Position numbers and translations under genes: made by a program
Source of the DNA: Leptolyngbya sp. DLM2.Bin15
GTDB taxonomy: Bacteria; Cyanobacteriota; Cyanobacteriia; RECH01
Assembly (NCBI GenBank): GCA_007694125.1
Contig: RECH01000221.1
Location: forward strand, 1-35,922
Direction of reading: 5' to 3'
Length of the DNA: 35,922 bases
Shown here: positions 10,401 to 25,235 of the stretch, in pieces
How positions within the stretch are numbered: position 1 is the stretch's first letter
Layout: the number at the start of each line of letters is the position of its first letter
The notes under the pieces: model-generated
Told to the model about the DNA's origin: nothing
Database searches by the model: none
The model's input: only the letters and a program-made list of their open reading frames with translations

Positions 10401-10976
10401 TTTAGCGACATCATTGGCTTCACCCAGTTGTCCAATACCTTGCGATCGCGGCGGGTGTCGGAGCTGCTCAACGAATATCTCACGGAAATGACCCATGCCA
10501 TTTTTGACCATGGGGGCACGGTGGATAAATTCATGGGGGATGCGATTTTGGCGATTTTCGGCGCGCCGGAAGAGCTACCGCCCAGTGAGCAGGTGCATCG
10601 AGCGATCGCTGCAGCTCGTCAGATGTATGCGTCTTTGGAAGTGCTGAATGCGCGCTGGCAGGCGCAGGGCATTGGCAAGGTGCAGTTCCGCTGCGGCATT
10701 CACCAGGGTACGGCGGTGGTGGGCATGTTTGGTGGTGCTGAGCGATCGGACTACACGGCCATTGGCCCCAGTGTGAACATTGCTGCCCGCATTCAAGAAG
10801 CTGCCACTCCCGACTCCATTCTGATTTCTGCTGCCGTGGCCGACTATCTAGAACTAGAAGACGATGCGGTGACCAAATGCAGCCCCCTGAAGCTCAAGGG
10901 CGTCGATGAAACGGTGTTGACCTTCTCGATCAAGGCCCATCCCGACTCGTTCTATCGCAACGCGCCGAAGGACTAA
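7404..10976 (+). CDS. cyaC: REC-GAF-GAF-HisKA-HATPase-REC-class III adenylate cyclase, CyaC-like
   Basis: REC1 ILVVDDEPDN/SDQRMP; two GAF-like regions; HisKA VSHEFRTPL; HATPase NLLSNAMKFTP, DTGIGI, GSGLGLALV; REC2 ILVVDDNPD/TDLMMP; cyclase FSDIIGFT, DKFMGD, DYTAIG, VNIAARI. The architecture matches cyanobacterial CyaC. Confidence 0.85.
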   Translation: MKSPDSEKPKILVVDDEPDNLDLLYRTFYREFKVLRAESGPVALEILAAEGDIAVIISDQRMPSMSGTEFLSLTATQYPDIIRIILTGYTDVEDLVEAINAGKVFKYVTKPWDDEELKTVVRQAVDTHNVLRTRTQELRRTLRQESLLNTISSAIRGALNYQYIFQTIVDTVGHMFEVDCCLLRPCQDELMTDEVFTYLSAAAQGDRVDQASESDASGTSDALDTSDASDPATSPLIHTLWETETIQVIQDTVTDERLERSAPNGGCIRHIYSQANIRSTLIVPLICQQELMAVLALHQQQPRVWQDDDVQLIAMVANQAAPALAQARAYEKLRALARREALVNTITTAIRSSLNPQDIFAAITQQLGQALHTDGCALSLWTAGDEFVQCVGLHDATDQNAEQPFTLGEIHPEPQSDWMITSAPQGEAPLVRSHLPTSRVPIEGNPVLQQLLSTQSPVIIDDLAHHPEMNMPDLPLRLPARALLVVPLLYNGHIIGSISLRQSSRSRQWQQEDIELAQAVAVQAAIAVQQSRLYQKTRQQAEQLLELDQQKNELFQNVSHEFRTPLTLTIGPLEAAIAQGQGLSYDQSQIALRNSRRLLRLVNQLLDIQRLDAGRMQPRFRPCDFKSFVAQIVDAFHHYCDRKEIHLSTDLEDCLPIYLDLEKFDKVLYNLLSNAMKFTPAGGSIVVSLRSANDHCLLQVRDTGIGIRPDQIPHLFDRFRQADGSANRKYEGSGLGLALVKKLVEMHGGNLSVESEYSKGSTFTVWLQTGISHLPPDQVIEVPMEMESSRAVVELADIEIHATDRPGDGEGEVGEVLGILPEGPDGDTAPTILVVDDNPDLRQYVSDILRNASYRVVTARNGAEGFQLAQTHQPQLILTDLMMPMVSGLEMIQQLRQDETLKGIPVILLTARADEDTRIEGVEQGADAYLSKPFNDRELLADVRNLLALKANERRVEELNRYLTESVLQRFLPPSLVKKAAQGDLLLDLRPEPKLVTILFSDIIGFTQLSNTLRSRRVSELLNEYLTEMTHAIFDHGGTVDKFMGDAILAIFGAPEELPPSEQVHRAIAAARQMYASLEVLNARWQAQGIGKVQFRCGIHQGTAVVGMFGGAERSDYTAIGPSVNIAARIQEAATPDSILISAAVADYLELEDDAVTKCSPLKLKGVDETVLTFSIKAHPDSFYRNAPKD
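8046..8099 (+). repeat. In-frame 18-bp tandem repeat (about 3 units) inside GAF1 coding region
   Basis: GATGCCTCAGGTACCTCA, GATGCCTTAGATACCTCA and GATGCCTCAGATCCTGCC encode DASGTS DALDTS DASDPA. Confidence 0.75.
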
Positions 10977-12205
10977 AACACGGTGCCGTCGCTTTGAATC
11001 TGTAGGGGTGGAGAGCCATCCCGTAGCTCGGCCGCAATGCGTCGTCCGGCAGCCCAGGTGCCGCCTTCAAGAATTTTCACGAGGGGGAGCTGGGTGGCAT
11101 CTTGCTGGCGGGTTTGGCGAATGGTTGCGGCAATCTGATCCAGTAAAACTACCGTCAGCGCCCGCCATTCGACAATCACCTCTGAGCCTGGTAAGTGGCG
11201 ATCGCTCACCACGCCCGCATGTTTTGGCTGCAGCAGTCCTAGATCGACACAAAGGCCGCCGTTACGATATTCCGCAAGACCGGTGAGGGCATCGAGGTCG
11301 GTGATGGTGATCCCTAGGCTTTGTAAGGGCTCCAGCAGAGAATAGGTGAGCCACTGGGAGAGTTTATGGAAGGGCACCAGTTGCGATCCCAGACCGCCAT
11401 CGGGTAGGCGGGGATGGGGCCAGACATCGCCTAAGTTCACCTGGGCGATCGCCACCCGTCCGGGCCAGATGTCGCTCAATCCCTCTAGGACGACATCGAA
11501 GACGGCGGTGGCCGGCAGGCGCTGATCGACGACCTGGGGCAGGAGGGCATCCACCAAATTGCCCAGCCGGGGTCGTTCTTGACCAAACAGATGGGGATAG
11601 CGATGGAGCGATCGCCCCAGGGTTTGCAGCAGGCCCGCCCGTCCCTCTAGTCCTACTAAGGGATTGCGATCGCTCACCTGGAAGGCAGCGGCTAGGCGAT
11701 CGGGGGTGAACTGCTGTAGACCTTGGGCGTCGGCTTGGAGTGGCTGCTGGGCATCGCTGGACATTGTGCCGGCGGTGAAGGCATAAAAGCTGGCGATCGC
11801 CAGTCCTTCTGAGCGTTGGTAGACCTCGTCGGTGCCGGGTTCGGTAAACTGCCAGGTGGCTCCAGCGCCCGCATCCAGCAGCACGCTGGTGATTGCTAGG
11901 TCGAACTGAATGCGGGCCCATTCGAGGGGATCGATCGTGCCTACCTGTTGGCTTAGGTGGGCCAGGCGATCGCGATCGCCGCTTTCAAAATGTCGCCAGC
12001 GACTGTGGAAGGGCACGGCCCAATCGGGATAGTTGGCCTCAATCACCTGGATGACGTAGTCGGCGGTGGCGGTTAGGCGGGTGAGGTCGCAGCGAAAATG
12101 GCTGAGCTGATCGGCACAGGCCAGGTCAAACAGTTGGCCACAGCGATCGCGAATTGCCGCCGTAGACCGCAGATAGGCAAGGGTGTCAGCCTCGGTTGCC
12201 ATCAC
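10973..12205 (-). CDS. URC4/Urg3 family protein (DUF1688), uracil catabolism
   Basis: Full-length similarity pattern to URC4/Urg3 (YVIQVIEANYPDWAVPFHSRWRHFE, PFHKLSQWLTYSLLEPLQ, LTGLAEYRNGGLCVDLGLL, VEWRALTVVLLDQIA). It neighbours upp and a URC1-like gene. Confidence 0.85.
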   Translation of the reverse strand: MMATEADTLAYLRSTAAIRDRCGQLFDLACADQLSHFRCDLTRLTATADYVIQVIEANYPDWAVPFHSRWRHFESGDRDRLAHLSQQVGTIDPLEWARIQFDLAITSVLLDAGAGATWQFTEPGTDEVYQRSEGLAIASFYAFTAGTMSSDAQQPLQADAQGLQQFTPDRLAAAFQVSDRNPLVGLEGRAGLLQTLGRSLHRYPHLFGQERPRLGNLVDALLPQVVDQRLPATAVFDVVLEGLSDIWPGRVAIAQVNLGDVWPHPRLPDGGLGSQLVPFHKLSQWLTYSLLEPLQSLGITITDLDALTGLAEYRNGGLCVDLGLLQPKHAGVVSDRHLPGSEVIVEWRALTVVLLDQIAATIRQTRQQDATQLPLVKILEGGTWAAGRRIAAELRDGSPPLQIQSDGTVF

Positions 12206-12232
12206 TCTTCCTCAGTAGGTGAACTCAAGTCA

Positions 12233-12374
12233 ATGAAAGCTGCTGGGTTTCGGCTTCGCTCAACCCTCTTCCTAGTATTCAATGCAAGCTGCCGGGTTTC
12301 GGCTTCGCTCAACCCTCTTCTCATCAGGATTGGGGCACTGAGCGAAGTCGAAGTGCTTGCCAATCGTTACGTCC
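12233..12374. repeat. Dispersed structured repeat, copy B (between upp and URC4)
   Basis: Two copies of AAGCTGCYGGGTTTCGGCTTCGCTCAACCCTCTTC, then ACTGAGCGAAGTCGAAG (complementary to the CTTCGCTCA arms), ending GCCAATCGTTACGTCC as in copy A. Confidence 0.8.
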
Positions 12375-12376
12375 CC

Positions 12377-13012
12377 CTAGCGCGTTCCATAGAGGCGATC
12401 GCCCGCGTCCCCTAGCCCTGGCAGAATGTAGCCTTGGGCATCGAGATGGTCATCCACGGAGGCGGTGTAGATGGGCACATCGGGATGTTCGCTATGGAAA
12501 TGGGCGATGCCCTCGGGAGCTGCTAGCAGACAGACAAACTTAATGGAGAGGGGCCCCGCTTCCTTGAGCCGATCCACCGCCGCCACCGCCGAGTTGCCCG
12601 TCGCCAGCATCGGATCCACCACCAACATATCCCGCTGCTCAATATCCGTGGGCAGTTTGAAGTAATATTCCACCGCCATCAGGGAGCTAGGCTCTCGGTA
12701 TAGACCGATATGCCCCACCTTGGCCGTGGGCATCAGCTCCAACATGCCATCCAGCAGCCCCTGCCCGGCCCGCATGATGGAAATAATCGCCATTTTTTTA
12801 TCCGCAGCCAGCATGGGCGCATCCATGGTGGTGAGAGGCGTTTGGATCGGGACGTACTTGAGGGGTAGATCCCGCGTTACCTCGTAGGCTAGCAGCATGG
12901 CCACCTCCTTCAGCAACTTGCGGAAGTCTTGGGTATGGGTGTCCACATGGCGCAGAAGCGAGAGCTTGTGCTGAACCAGTGGATGCGTAATCACATGAAC
13001 CTCTGCTGCCAT
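12377..13012 (-). CDS. upp: Uracil phosphoribosyltransferase
   Basis: [73 protein letters not shown]. The start is probably [11 protein letters not shown] at 13012 rather than the ORF start at 13078. Confidence 0.93.
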
Positions 13013-13238
13013 GAATCCCGATGTATGGTGGTAGATATCGACTAGATGATCCCATGCGCCGGACAGACCAGCTCCCATGGTTCGGACGCAAGAGCGATCG
13101 CCCCCGCTTCAGTGATCGAAGTATCGCGACTGGGTTCCTCGAACCGCCCCGCCTATGGCTTTCTGTCACCCCTAAAGCATTTCCATGGGTTCTGATTAGA
13201 ATACACTACAACCTTTCCCCTCACTCGGATGGATCGAT

Positions 13239-14492
13239 ATGGTGAATAACCCGCAGAAGCCGAAGCATATCATTCTCACCTCCCATTCCCATCGTGCTAG
13301 CACCAAACGTATTCCCATTGAGTGGGGAGCTGCTGATCCCCAAGCGCGCGGCCCGGTGATTGGTTCCCCCCGCAGTTTGGCCTATCGCAATGTCATTGGT
13401 ACCCATGCGGGTTCCTATGGCGTGTATCGAGCCTTGGCCGTGGCCAGCGGCGTCCTCGATCCAGCCCATCGCGCCGATCTCACCAACACCTCGCCTGTGG
13501 TACATATTGGCCCCTATCCCAGTTGGAGTGACCCCAGCAAGATTGTCTCCCTCGATCCCCTAGGCGGCTTGGTCAGCGAGGTGTTTAGCGACATGGCCTC
13601 GGAGGACTACGACATTCTGCCCACCATTGCCATCACCAAAGCTCATATCAATATTCCTGAACTCCAGAGCGAAATTGATGCCGGCCGCATCGTGGCGGAT
13701 GGCACCTTGCTGAAGGCCGATGGCAGTCTCGTGGTCACCAAGGCGGCGATTGATCCGGTGTGGTATCTGCCGGGGATTGCCCAGCGGCTTGACATTGAGG
13801 AAGCTGATCTGCGGCGAGTGCTGTTTCAACAAACGGGCGGCATGTTTCCAGAACTGGTCACCCGTCCCGATCTGCAGGTGTTTCTACCCCCCATTGGCGG
13901 CACCACGGTCTATATCGTCGGTGATATCAACACGGTGGCCGATCCTACCGTGCCCCTAGCGGTGCGGGTGCATGATGAATGCAATGGTTCCGATGTGTTT
14001 GGCTCAGATATCTGCACCTGCCGTCCCTACCTAGTTCACGGTATTGAGGTCTGTATTCAAACGGCTCAAGAGGGCGGCGCTGGGGTAATTGTCTACTGCC
14101 GTAAGGAAGGCAGAGCCCTGGGTGAAGTCACCAAGTTCTTGGTCTACAATGCCCGCAAACGTCAGGAGGGGGGCGATCGCGCCGATGCCTATTTCCTGCG
14201 TACCGAATGTGTGGCGGGGGTGCAGGATATGCGCTTCCAGGAACTGATGCCGGACGTGCTGCACTGGCTGGGCATCACCAAAATCGATCGCCTGGTCTCC
14301 ATGAGCCAGATGAAGTACAACGCCATCACCCACTCGGGGATTGAGGTGGTGAAACGGGTGCCGATTCCGCCAGACCTGATCCCTGCCGATGCCCAAGTGG
14401 AAATCGAGGCCAAAAAGGCCTCGGGCTACTATTCGGAAGATGGTGTTCGTGATGGGGATGACCTAGCTCAGGTGAAGGGTCGAGACTACTAA
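13239..14492 (+). CDS. URC1-like GTP cyclohydrolase II homolog (uracil catabolism)
   Basis: C-terminal GCH II-like domain: RVHDECNGSDVFGSDICTCRPYL keeps the C-x10-C-x-C zinc cysteines; YCRKEGRALGE; GIEVVKRVPI. A long N-terminal region and genomic pairing with URC4 and upp indicate URC1 rather than RibA. Confidence 0.82.
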   Translation: MVNNPQKPKHIILTSHSHRASTKRIPIEWGAADPQARGPVIGSPRSLAYRNVIGTHAGSYGVYRALAVASGVLDPAHRADLTNTSPVVHIGPYPSWSDPSKIVSLDPLGGLVSEVFSDMASEDYDILPTIAITKAHINIPELQSEIDAGRIVADGTLLKADGSLVVTKAAIDPVWYLPGIAQRLDIEEADLRRVLFQQTGGMFPELVTRPDLQVFLPPIGGTTVYIVGDINTVADPTVPLAVRVHDECNGSDVFGSDICTCRPYLVHGIEVCIQTAQEGGAGVIVYCRKEGRALGEVTKFLVYNARKRQEGGDRADAYFLRTECVAGVQDMRFQELMPDVLHWLGITKIDRLVSMSQMKYNAITHSGIEVVKRVPIPPDLIPADAQVEIEAKKASGYYSEDGVRDGDDLAQVKGRDY

Positions 14493-22005: not shown

Positions 22006-23277
22006 ATGACTACTGTCCTGTTGCCAGCCGTGCGCCTTCTCGATCCCATTCGCCAAACGGATGGCGTAGCGGATGTACTGGTTCAAGACGGGATGATCCA
22101 AGCGATCGCGCCCACCATCGATGCACCACCGGACACCCTGATTTGCGATCGCCCCGGCCTGGTCATGGGCCCAGGGTTGGTGGATCTCTACAGCACCAGC
22201 GGTGAGCCGGGGTATGAGTCGCGGGAGACGTTGGACTCGTTGCTCAATGCCGCCGTGGCTGGAGGGTTTACCCGGCTGACGCTGTTGCCCCATATGCAGC
22301 CGCCTATGGACAGCCCGGCCATGGCCACCTGGCTGCGATCGCGGCTCCAGACCTGTGCTAGCGCGGTGCGCGTTGAGCTGTGGGGTGCTTTAACCCAAGG
22401 ACTGGAGGGCGATCGCATGGCAGAGGTCGCCGATTTGTCCGAGGCGGGGGTGATGGGCTTTACTGATGGCCAGCCCATCGCCCAACTGAACCTGCTGCAT
22501 CGTTTACTCGACTACCTGACGCCCTATGGGAAACCCTTGGCGCTGTGGTGCTGCGATCGCACTCTCACCTACGGCGGCACGGCCCGAGAAGGACAGGACT
22601 CGATTCGTCTTGGGCTTCCCGGTCATCCGGCCATGGCGGAAACGGCAGCGATCGCAGCGGTGCTGGAATGTTTAACCCCAGCGTCGCCACCGGTGCATTT
22701 CATGCGGATCTCCACGGCCCGCAGTGTGGAGCTGATCCAGCAGGGCAAGCAGCGCGGCTTGCCGATGACTGCCAGCACAACCTGGATGCACCTGCTTTGG
22801 ACGACGGCAGATTTGGAGCATTATGATCCCAACCTCCGGCTCGATCCCCCCTTAGGAACACCAGCGGATCGAGCGGCCCTCGTCCAGGCGATCGCCACGG
22901 GGGTGCTCGATGCGATCGCCGTCGATCATACGCCCCACACCTACGAAGACAAGACCGTTGCCTTCAATGAAGCGCCCCCTGGAGCCATTGGTCTAGAACT
23001 AGCCCTGCCTTTGCTCTGGGAGGCCTTTGTGGCCACTAGCCAATGGGATGCCCTCACCCTGTGGAGCTGCTTGAGTACGCATCCTGCCCTCTGCCTCCAG
23101 CAAGAACCGCCCCAGATTGCCGTGGGGCAGCCGGCAGAACTGACCCTGTTTGACCCCCATGCCGACTGGACCGTGACCCGACCAACCCTCCAGTCGCGAT
23201 CGCACAATACGCCATACCTAGGGCGATCGCTGCGCGGTCGAGTGATTCCCTGGGCGCAATTGGTGAGGGAATCCTAG
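22006..23277 (+). CDS. Dihydroorotase-like amidohydrolase lacking the HxH metal motif (probable non-catalytic paralog)
   Basis: Amidohydrolase/DHOase layout: MGPGLVDLYSTSGEPGYESRETL, GVMGFTDGQPIA, VHFMRISTARSVELI, NLRLDPPLGTPADRAALVQAI, DAIAVDHTPHTYEDK. The expected DxHxHxREPG reads DLYSTSGEPG. Confidence 0.85.
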   Translation: MTTVLLPAVRLLDPIRQTDGVADVLVQDGMIQAIAPTIDAPPDTLICDRPGLVMGPGLVDLYSTSGEPGYESRETLDSLLNAAVAGGFTRLTLLPHMQPPMDSPAMATWLRSRLQTCASAVRVELWGALTQGLEGDRMAEVADLSEAGVMGFTDGQPIAQLNLLHRLLDYLTPYGKPLALWCCDRTLTYGGTAREGQDSIRLGLPGHPAMAETAAIAAVLECLTPASPPVHFMRISTARSVELIQQGKQRGLPMTASTTWMHLLWTTADLEHYDPNLRLDPPLGTPADRAALVQAIATGVLDAIAVDHTPHTYEDKTVAFNEAPPGAIGLELALPLLWEAFVATSQWDALTLWSCLSTHPALCLQQEPPQIAVGQPAELTLFDPHADWTVTRPTLQSRSHNTPYLGRSLRGRVIPWAQLVRES

Positions 23278-23304: not shown

Positions 23305-23979
23305 CTACAGGGATAGACGAAAGCCTTGACCTAGGGGCAACGCTGCCACCCAAGGGCGATCGCCCCCATAGCTTTGGTCGGGATAAATGGGCAGGGGATC
23401 GATGCCCCCAATGCGGTTGAGGGGCCAAAAGCGAACAACGGCCCGTCCGATAATGTCATCTTCATGGACATAGCCCCAGAAATGACTGTCGTTGCTGCGA
23501 TTGCGGTTATCGCCTAGGACAAAGTATGACTGCTCAGGAATGGTGGTGGGGCCCCATTCATAGTTGGGAGCTTCGGCAATGTATGGTTCGATGATCGGCT
23601 GATTGTTGACATAAACCTGCCCACCGGCAATCCTGACCGTATCTCCCGGCAGCCCCACCACGCGCTTAATCAGGGCATCGCGGAATTCGGGCTGTTGACG
23701 GCGCAACCCTTCGGGAGGATCAAAGACAATGATTTCGCCCCGAGTGGGTAGACGAAAGTAGTAGGAGACTTTTTCGATAATTAAGCGATCGTCTACTTGG
23801 AGTGTCGGCAGCATCGATTCGGTGGGAATAAACCGTGCTTCGGCAATGAAATGACGGATGCCGATGGCTAGCACGATGCTCACACCAAAGATTTTTACCC
23901 ACTCTACCCATCCATCTTCTTCGGTCTCGTGGGTGTTGGCATGGGAATTAGAACTTAGCGGTTTGGGGCGTTCACTCAT
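23305..23979 (-). CDS. lepB: Signal peptidase I
   Basis: RFIPTESMLPTLQ (Ser), IKRVVGLPGDTV (Lys), YFVLGDNRNRSNDSHFWGYV; N-terminal TM. Confidence 0.95.
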   Translation of the reverse strand: MSERPKPLSSNSHANTHETEEDGWVEWVKIFGVSIVLAIGIRHFIAEARFIPTESMLPTLQVDDRLIIEKVSYYFRLPTRGEIIVFDPPEGLRRQQPEFRDALIKRVVGLPGDTVRIAGGQVYVNNQPIIEPYIAEAPNYEWGPTTIPEQSYFVLGDNRNRSNDSHFWGYVHEDDIIGRAVVRFWPLNRIGGIDPLPIYPDQSYGGDRPWVAALPLGQGFRLSL

Positions 23980-24075
23980 TCAACTCGTCCGGTGATAGGG
24001 CATGGGTGCATCCGGCATTTGATTCTAGACTGCGACCTGCTTCGGGGCAAGCGATCGCTTCGGTCTCCACTGTCC

Positions 24076-24696
24076 TTAGTTCACAAGTTGCTGGTTCCCG
24101 TCCTCTGGGTAGAGGAGTGCTGGAGTGACAGCCCCAAGGCGATTGGGGGGCCAAAACCGCACCGCTGCCCGTCCGATAATCGTCTCCCGAGGTACATAGC
24201 CCCAGAAGTGGCTGTCTAAACTATTGTTGCGATTGTCGCCCAACACCAAATAGGACTTCTCAGGCACCACTGCCGGGCCCCAGACATAGGTCGGCTCTGC
24301 AGCAATGTAGGGTTCATCTAGGGGGGCTCCATTGATCAACACTTGACCATGGATCACTTGAACGGTTTCGCCGGGTAAGCCAATTACCCGTTTGATAAAG
24401 GCAAAGCGAAAATCTGGATTTTGCTCCTGTAAGTCTTCCCGAGGCATAAAGACCACCACATCACCCCGAGCTGGATCCTGGAAACGGTAGCTGAGTTTTT
24501 CGACCACCAGGTGATCGTTCACTTGCAGGGTCGGCACCATCGATTCGGTGGGAATATAGCGGGCTTCTGCAATAAAATGCCGGATGCCCAGGGACATAAA
24601 TAAACTCAGCCCAACGACTTTTAAGACTTCTCTCCAAGGATTGGCTTGGGAGTGGGGGGTGGAGCGATCGCGACGCACAGACTTCATAGGCAACAT
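24076..24696 (-). CDS. lepB: Signal peptidase I (tandem paralog)
   Basis: RYIPTESMVPTLQ, IKRVIGLPGETV, YLVLGDNRNNSLDSHFWGYV. Confidence 0.95.
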   Translation of the reverse strand: MLPMKSVRRDRSTPHSQANPWREVLKVVGLSLFMSLGIRHFIAEARYIPTESMVPTLQVNDHLVVEKLSYRFQDPARGDVVVFMPREDLQEQNPDFRFAFIKRVIGLPGETVQVIHGQVLINGAPLDEPYIAAEPTYVWGPAVVPEKSYLVLGDNRNNSLDSHFWGYVPRETIIGRAAVRFWPPNRLGAVTPALLYPEDGNQQLVN

Positions 24697-24925
24697 TTAG
24701 GAACTATCACAGACAACTAGGATGCCACTAGGGGATCCACCGGTGCCTTGAATGGTATGGACAGCTTTCGGGCAGCAGCGGGTTGACGTTGAACCAGGGT
24801 GTGATCTGGAAACATAAAGGCTATCGCAATTCTAGCGAAGATGGTTTGGAAATCCGCTAGGTTTGCACTATGACCCGTTGTCTACTTCGACTCAGGTATT
24901 CATCAATACGGCTGCTTCATCCGTA

Positions 24926-25182
24926 TTGATCCGCCACGCTTCTAGGATCATGCCGGCTGGGGCTCACCAGGATGGAGACGTCTTGATTGAGAACGGAGCG
25001 ATCGCCCAAGTGGGCACCGATCTGTGGGATCTGTAGTGGATCTGTAGTGGATTTGTAGTGGATTTGTAGTGGATCTGTAGGCAGATAGGGACATAGACGT
25101 CACCGGGCTGAGGTTGTTGCCAGGGGTGATCGATCCCCAGGTGCATTTACGGGAAGCGGGGCTGGACTATGAAGATCTCGGC
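24926..25182 (+). pseudogene. Decayed dihydroorotase (HxH type) N-terminal fragment
   Basis: Frame A encodes LIRHASRIMPAGAHQDGDVLIENGAIAQVGTDL. After an 11-bp tandem array, another frame encodes [32 protein letters not shown]. Homology then stops. Confidence 0.75.
25019..25080. repeat. 11-bp tandem repeat GATYTGTAGTG (4 full units plus partial ends)
   Basis: Units at 25028, 25039, 25050 and 25061 plus a partial at 25072; each carries an in-frame-capable TAG. Confidence 0.9.
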
Positions 25183-25235
25183 CTACGAGAGAATGAGCCT
25201 TTCAGCTTATCCCAACCTCTTGTTCCAACCTCAGG

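Follow-up and report, generated by a model that had tools for sequence, protein, structure and literature searches.

A dihydroorotase pseudogene beside lepB in Leptolyngbya points to recurrent displacement of the resident enzyme by a horizontally transferred type II PyrC

The window, i.e. the whole stretch of 35,922 nucleotides of Leptolyngbya sp. DLM2.Bin15 that was analysed, contains at positions 24905-25182 (+ strand) what is left of a dihydroorotase gene: its first ~75 codons, distributed over two frames and split by an 11-bp tandem array. The features of the locus are as follows.

22006..23277, + strand: PRK07369-type dihydroorotase-like paralog, intact, lacking the metal motif and evolving under purifying selection, as judged from congeners
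24076..24696, - strand: lepB, encoding signal peptidase I, next to which the PRK07575 gene ancestrally lay in divergent orientation
24905..25018, + strand: fragment A, the first ~38 codons of a PRK07575-type dihydroorotase that was very probably displaced, with ATG changed to AAT at 24905-24907
25019..25080, no strand: 11-bp tandem array with the unit GATCTGTAGTG in ~5.8 copies, which disrupts the reading frame and contains TAG stops
25093..25182, + strand: fragment B of the same PRK07575 gene, in a frame different from that of fragment A, with the QVH codons at 25138-25146
25183..25235, no strand: deletion scar with a junction common to the congener G003, running into an adenylate/guanylate cyclase gene; ~365 C-terminal codons have been deleted

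With regard to the identity of the stump, the family-model search against NF005751/PRK07575 gives a clear match for fragment B (25093-25179, E 4e-8, profile 47-75) and a weak one for fragment A (24926-25015, E 0.008, profile 6-35). PRK07575 is the best model for fragment B, tied with PRK09060, and fragment A matches NF005751 alone; both fragments were also recovered independently by a genome-wide NF005751 scan. As the protein identity to intact genes elsewhere is 48-60% for fragment A and 61-75% for fragment B, and as the order of the fragments and the slot beside lepB are the same, the match is not due to chance. The stump scores ~30 and ~15 bits, far below the curated cut-off of NF005751 (529 bits), and only ~75 of 440 positions are left. 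At the DNA level, its matches to the other dihydroorotase-model loci of the genome are only short chance matches, many of them around GCGATCGC. The stump thus matches the beginning of PRK07575/NF005751 (~75 codons) and occupies the place beside lepB where this gene usually lies, but it has lost its start codon, lies in two frames and lacks the C-terminal ~365 codons: it is dead, a pseudogene of this family and no longer a working member.

The sequence-only reading had already described an N-terminal dihydroorotase pseudogene in two frames with the array in between, an anatomy that the model matches bear out. Its estimate of 350-400 lost codons also agrees with the ~365 codons that the genome-wide scan finds neither on the contig nor elsewhere in the genome. 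Its assignment of the remnant to the HxH type has to be abandoned. The motif of fragment B is DPQVHLRE, with Q-V-H at 25138-25146 instead of His-x-His at strand 1, which is the QxH metal motif of PRK07575: each of the 30 intact loci inspected for this family, which is type I-like, has DPQVHF, and QVH is likewise present in PDB 2GWN, the nearest relative with a solved structure.

In most of the intact PRK07575 loci fetched, the gene is divergent from and adjoins lepB, a geometry identical to that of the stump and lepB in the window. The coding trace begins at 24905, where the congener G003 retains the ATG that reads AAT in the window. Near this start, a second slippage tract of TGATCCGCAT-like units (24920-24935) is shortest in the window, longer in G003 and longest in the congener G002. 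On the other side, lepB is part of a tandem pair of signal peptidase I genes (23305-24696), which are ~55-60% identical to each other and present as a pair in both congeners. Further away, genes resembling a URC-type uracil-degradation set surround upp (10973-14492).

The intact neighbour of the stump at 22006-23277 belongs to the same superfamily (PRK07369/NF005614). In congeners, its protein identity is ~92% at a four-fold-site identity of 0.76-0.79. It lacks the metal motif, as the sequence-only reading had stated, and it co-occurs with either active enzyme, so it is not the replacement. The PyrC' of Pseudomonas, discussed in PMC2770081, offers a comparison for this paralog.

The loss of the resident gene had raised the question of how this strain makes orotate, and whether a functional pyrC had been relocated. 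An intact type II PyrC of 342 aa is encoded on a contig other than that of the stump (C115:5168-6196). It scores 522.6 bits against TIGR00856 (cut-off 292.95) over residues 3-341, i.e. its full length, and aligns from one end to the other with type II enzymes of known structure. Its motifs, HLHLRD at 13, VKYYPAG at 98, LLHGE at 134, FEHITT at 172 and GTDSAPH at 244, preserve every residue that binds metal in E. coli PyrC, i.e. two His, Lys, two more His and Asp (PMC2770081). In the division of dihydroorotases into types I and II (PMC8659124, PMC11818841), the intact dihydroorotase of the genome is of type II, a member of the E. coli PyrC family (PDB 1J79, 4LFY). It differs from the old gene in contig, in type and in its horizontal acquisition, and it is no relocated copy but a different gene family. 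The pyrB, pyrD, pyrE and pyrF genes, which it had been proposed to check, are all present, each over its family cut-off. With type II PyrC added to these genes, no gap in the pathway is predicted and the orotate puzzle disappears. The same pyrC neighbourhood occurs in G002 on a 59-kb contig, so the C115 gene is not contamination. Two other loci match dihydroorotase models but are not dihydroorotases: the one on C80 is a dihydropyrimidinase, and the one on C256 a TRZ/ATZ-type amidohydrolase.

To place these two enzymes in the class, 291 genomes were scored by the PRK07575 and TIGR00856 cut-offs, which are passed by 166 and 119 genomes, respectively; the assemblies include some with fragmentation or mild contamination (G029, G003). 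PRK07575 alone is found in 158 genomes, type II PyrC alone in 111, both in 8 and neither in 14, many of the last being incomplete. The eight genomes with both enzymes compare with 68 expected under independence (Fisher p 1e-53). This and the other exclusion statistics ignore phylogeny, except for the within-genus contrasts: nine genera hold both PRK07575-only and type II-only species, which implies at least nine changes if those genera are monophyletic. Among the genomes with neither enzyme, G130 (family f24, listed as 100% complete) is below both cut-offs and gives a best PRK07575-model match with an E-value of 4.9e-77; either its gene is fragmented or it uses a third solution.

Stumps of the PRK07575 gene were searched for in 83 type II PyrC genomes, with the small-genome family f2 set aside and the genome of the window (G000) searched separately. 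They lie beside lepB in ~13 type II genomes, including those of the window's genus; outside this genus, they are found in G098, G054, G041, G027, G029, G065, G076, G170, G165 and G229. Only the C-terminal part is left in G056, G228, G256 and G265. Many of the stumps exhibit stops, frameshifts or large internal deletions, and they become progressively shorter in the g26 genomes G054, G041 and G027. The stump of G065 is collinear with the intact gene of its congener G246 from lepB to codon ~126, after which ~2.65 kb is missing. A fragment in G127 was rejected as a stump, being a 33% match only. A full-length match in G168 (L105, G168:C104:2487-3776), 39% identical to a cyanobacterial PRK07575 protein, is not a stump but a divergent homolog; as G168 also carries type II PyrC, L105 is possibly a further acquired dihydroorotase type.

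In the converse search, no type II PyrC stumps were found in 74 PRK07575-only genomes, nor in three genomes with neither enzyme, all from families that also contain type II genomes. The matches returned were weak, covered the conserved middle of the profile and lay within long open frames, most of these being the PRK07575 genes. The asymmetry between 13-17 of 76 genomes and 0 of 74 corresponds to a Fisher p of 1e-4 to 6e-6, uncorrected for relatedness. These one-sided stumps strongly indicate the direction of the replacement.

The type II gene shows a pattern of similarity that does not follow the families. The PyrC of the window's genome is 98% identical to that of G002 and 94.5-95% identical to those of three genera of family f24; the values are 85% for the congener G003 and 87.5% for G001 of its own family. 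At four-fold sites, pyrC identity with G003 is 0.43, compared with 0.66-0.77 for neighbouring genes, and it reaches 0.76 with G232 (family f24), a genome in which LepB shares only 64% and PRK07369 only 54% protein identity with the window. AU tests reject a single PyrC clade for families f24 (p 0.001) and f15 (p 0.024); one clade for the three congeneric PyrCs of the window's genus is not rejected (p 0.37). On these comparisons, the incoming type II gene moves horizontally. Since the non-cyanobacterial relatives among the matches listed are mostly from Betaproteobacteria, at 65-75% identity, it is likely of proteobacterial origin. The G+C content of the pyrC contig (0.49 versus 0.56) fits an acquired region without proving it.

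These data bear on the most serious competing explanation, in which the ancestor possessed both enzymes and chance decided which of them each lineage lost, with no transfer. The eight genomes with both enzymes and the wide occurrence of both families in the class would be expected under such differential loss. However, near-identical type II PyrCs across families, yet a four-fold-site identity of 0.43 between congeners, are not, and neither is the rejection of family monophyly; random loss should also leave stumps of both kinds, and only those of PRK07575 were found. Differential loss is thus largely refuted by the similarity pattern of pyrC, and we regard it as very unlikely.

The congeners allow the fate of the stump itself to be followed. 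G003, a separate assembly, possesses both fragments and the same 3' deletion junction, with a different short-unit linker at the site of the array, and G002 retains a shorter trace without a linker. Between the window and G003, the fragments are 0.71 and 0.79 identical, close to the four-fold sites of the neighbouring genes (0.66-0.77), as neutral drift predicts. Upstream of lepB, the block 24830-24870 (CTATCGCAATTCTAGCGAAGATGGTTTGGAAATC and its flanks) is 85-93% identical in the congeners, in surroundings of ~70-80%; it is possibly a lepB promoter or a former pyrC regulatory site. This conservation, together with the recurrence of N-terminal stumps beside lepB in several lineages, could suggest that the stump has been retained as leader or promoter DNA of lepB, or as a short peptide. 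Nevertheless, the conserved block lies outside the stump, which diverges about as fast as four-fold sites, no longer has a start codon, has linkers that differ among congeners and is mostly gone in G002, so that retention for a function is less likely still than differential loss.

A local mis-join of a gene that is intact in the organism is hardly credible: although the assembly comprises 384 contigs and the break falls at a tandem array, a common trouble spot for assemblers, the comparison with sister strains that the sequence-only reading had proposed supports the pseudogene, because the separate G003 assembly has the same 3' junction and G002 is further reduced, and this 99.9% complete genome holds no other PRK07575 sequence and a replacement enzyme predicted to be functional. 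Equally hard to credit is a partial duplication with the resident gene never lost, which would account for the presence of the first ~75 codons only but not for the occupied ancestral slot, the lack of a parent copy in the genome or the collinearity of the G065 stump with the intact G246 gene up to a clean deletion.

We therefore favour, with high confidence, the interpretation of the stump as a fossil of a process in which a type II PyrC, moving by horizontal transfer, has displaced the resident dihydroorotase repeatedly and in one direction. A PRK07575-type gene divergent from lepB was present in the ancestor, and the decay of this gene, the presence of a replacement and the recurrence of the exchange in the class are directly visible in the genomes. 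The order of events that we infer begins with the arrival of type II PyrC, which would have made the resident gene redundant and freed it from selection. The old gene would then have decayed neutrally through deletion and repeat slippage, the tandem array probably being a slippage expansion in dead DNA. The N-terminal end may persist longest because deletions reaching the 5' region of lepB would be selected against. Since the PRK07575 deletion is common to G000 and G003 but their type II genes are dissimilar and lie in different neighbourhoods, a second exchange, of type II genes, must be assumed; the type II gene itself was probably exchanged later in G000 and/or G003.

That genes can be displaced in this way is already known. 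As in other cases of non-orthologous (xenologous) displacement, the resident enzyme of an essential step is replaced by a transferred isofunctional enzyme of a different type, and all three marks of such an event are found here: a near-exclusive distribution, transfer of the incoming gene and a residual trace of the displaced one. In contrast to the typical case, the displacement recurs within one bacterial class and its direction is recorded by stumps. In the open literature, a scope outside which most subscription papers fall, we found no description of a recurrent dihydroorotase exchange in cyanobacteria or of its stumps.

An apparent gap in pyrimidine synthesis thus becomes a readable case of repeated replacement at an essential step, in which the stumps give the direction and the genomes with both enzymes represent intermediates. 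We can only speculate that type II PyrC acts in cyanobacteria as a mobile gene for replacement, consistently superior to the resident QxH enzyme, spreading between families and irreversibly removing the resident gene; this broader proposal is possible rather than probable. If it holds, the advantage could stem from, for instance, the use of metals or the evasion of an inhibitor or phage, and gain would be common and reversal rare. The zinc-related PyrC paralogs of proteobacteria (PMC2770081) are a possible lead to the selective driver, and the congeneric pairs G065/G246 and G076/G088 make the selective cause directly testable. Finally, the annotation 'pyrC' in cyanobacteria spans two active-looking families and a metal-site-deficient paralog, so that presence/absence calls and phylogenies based on this name mislead.
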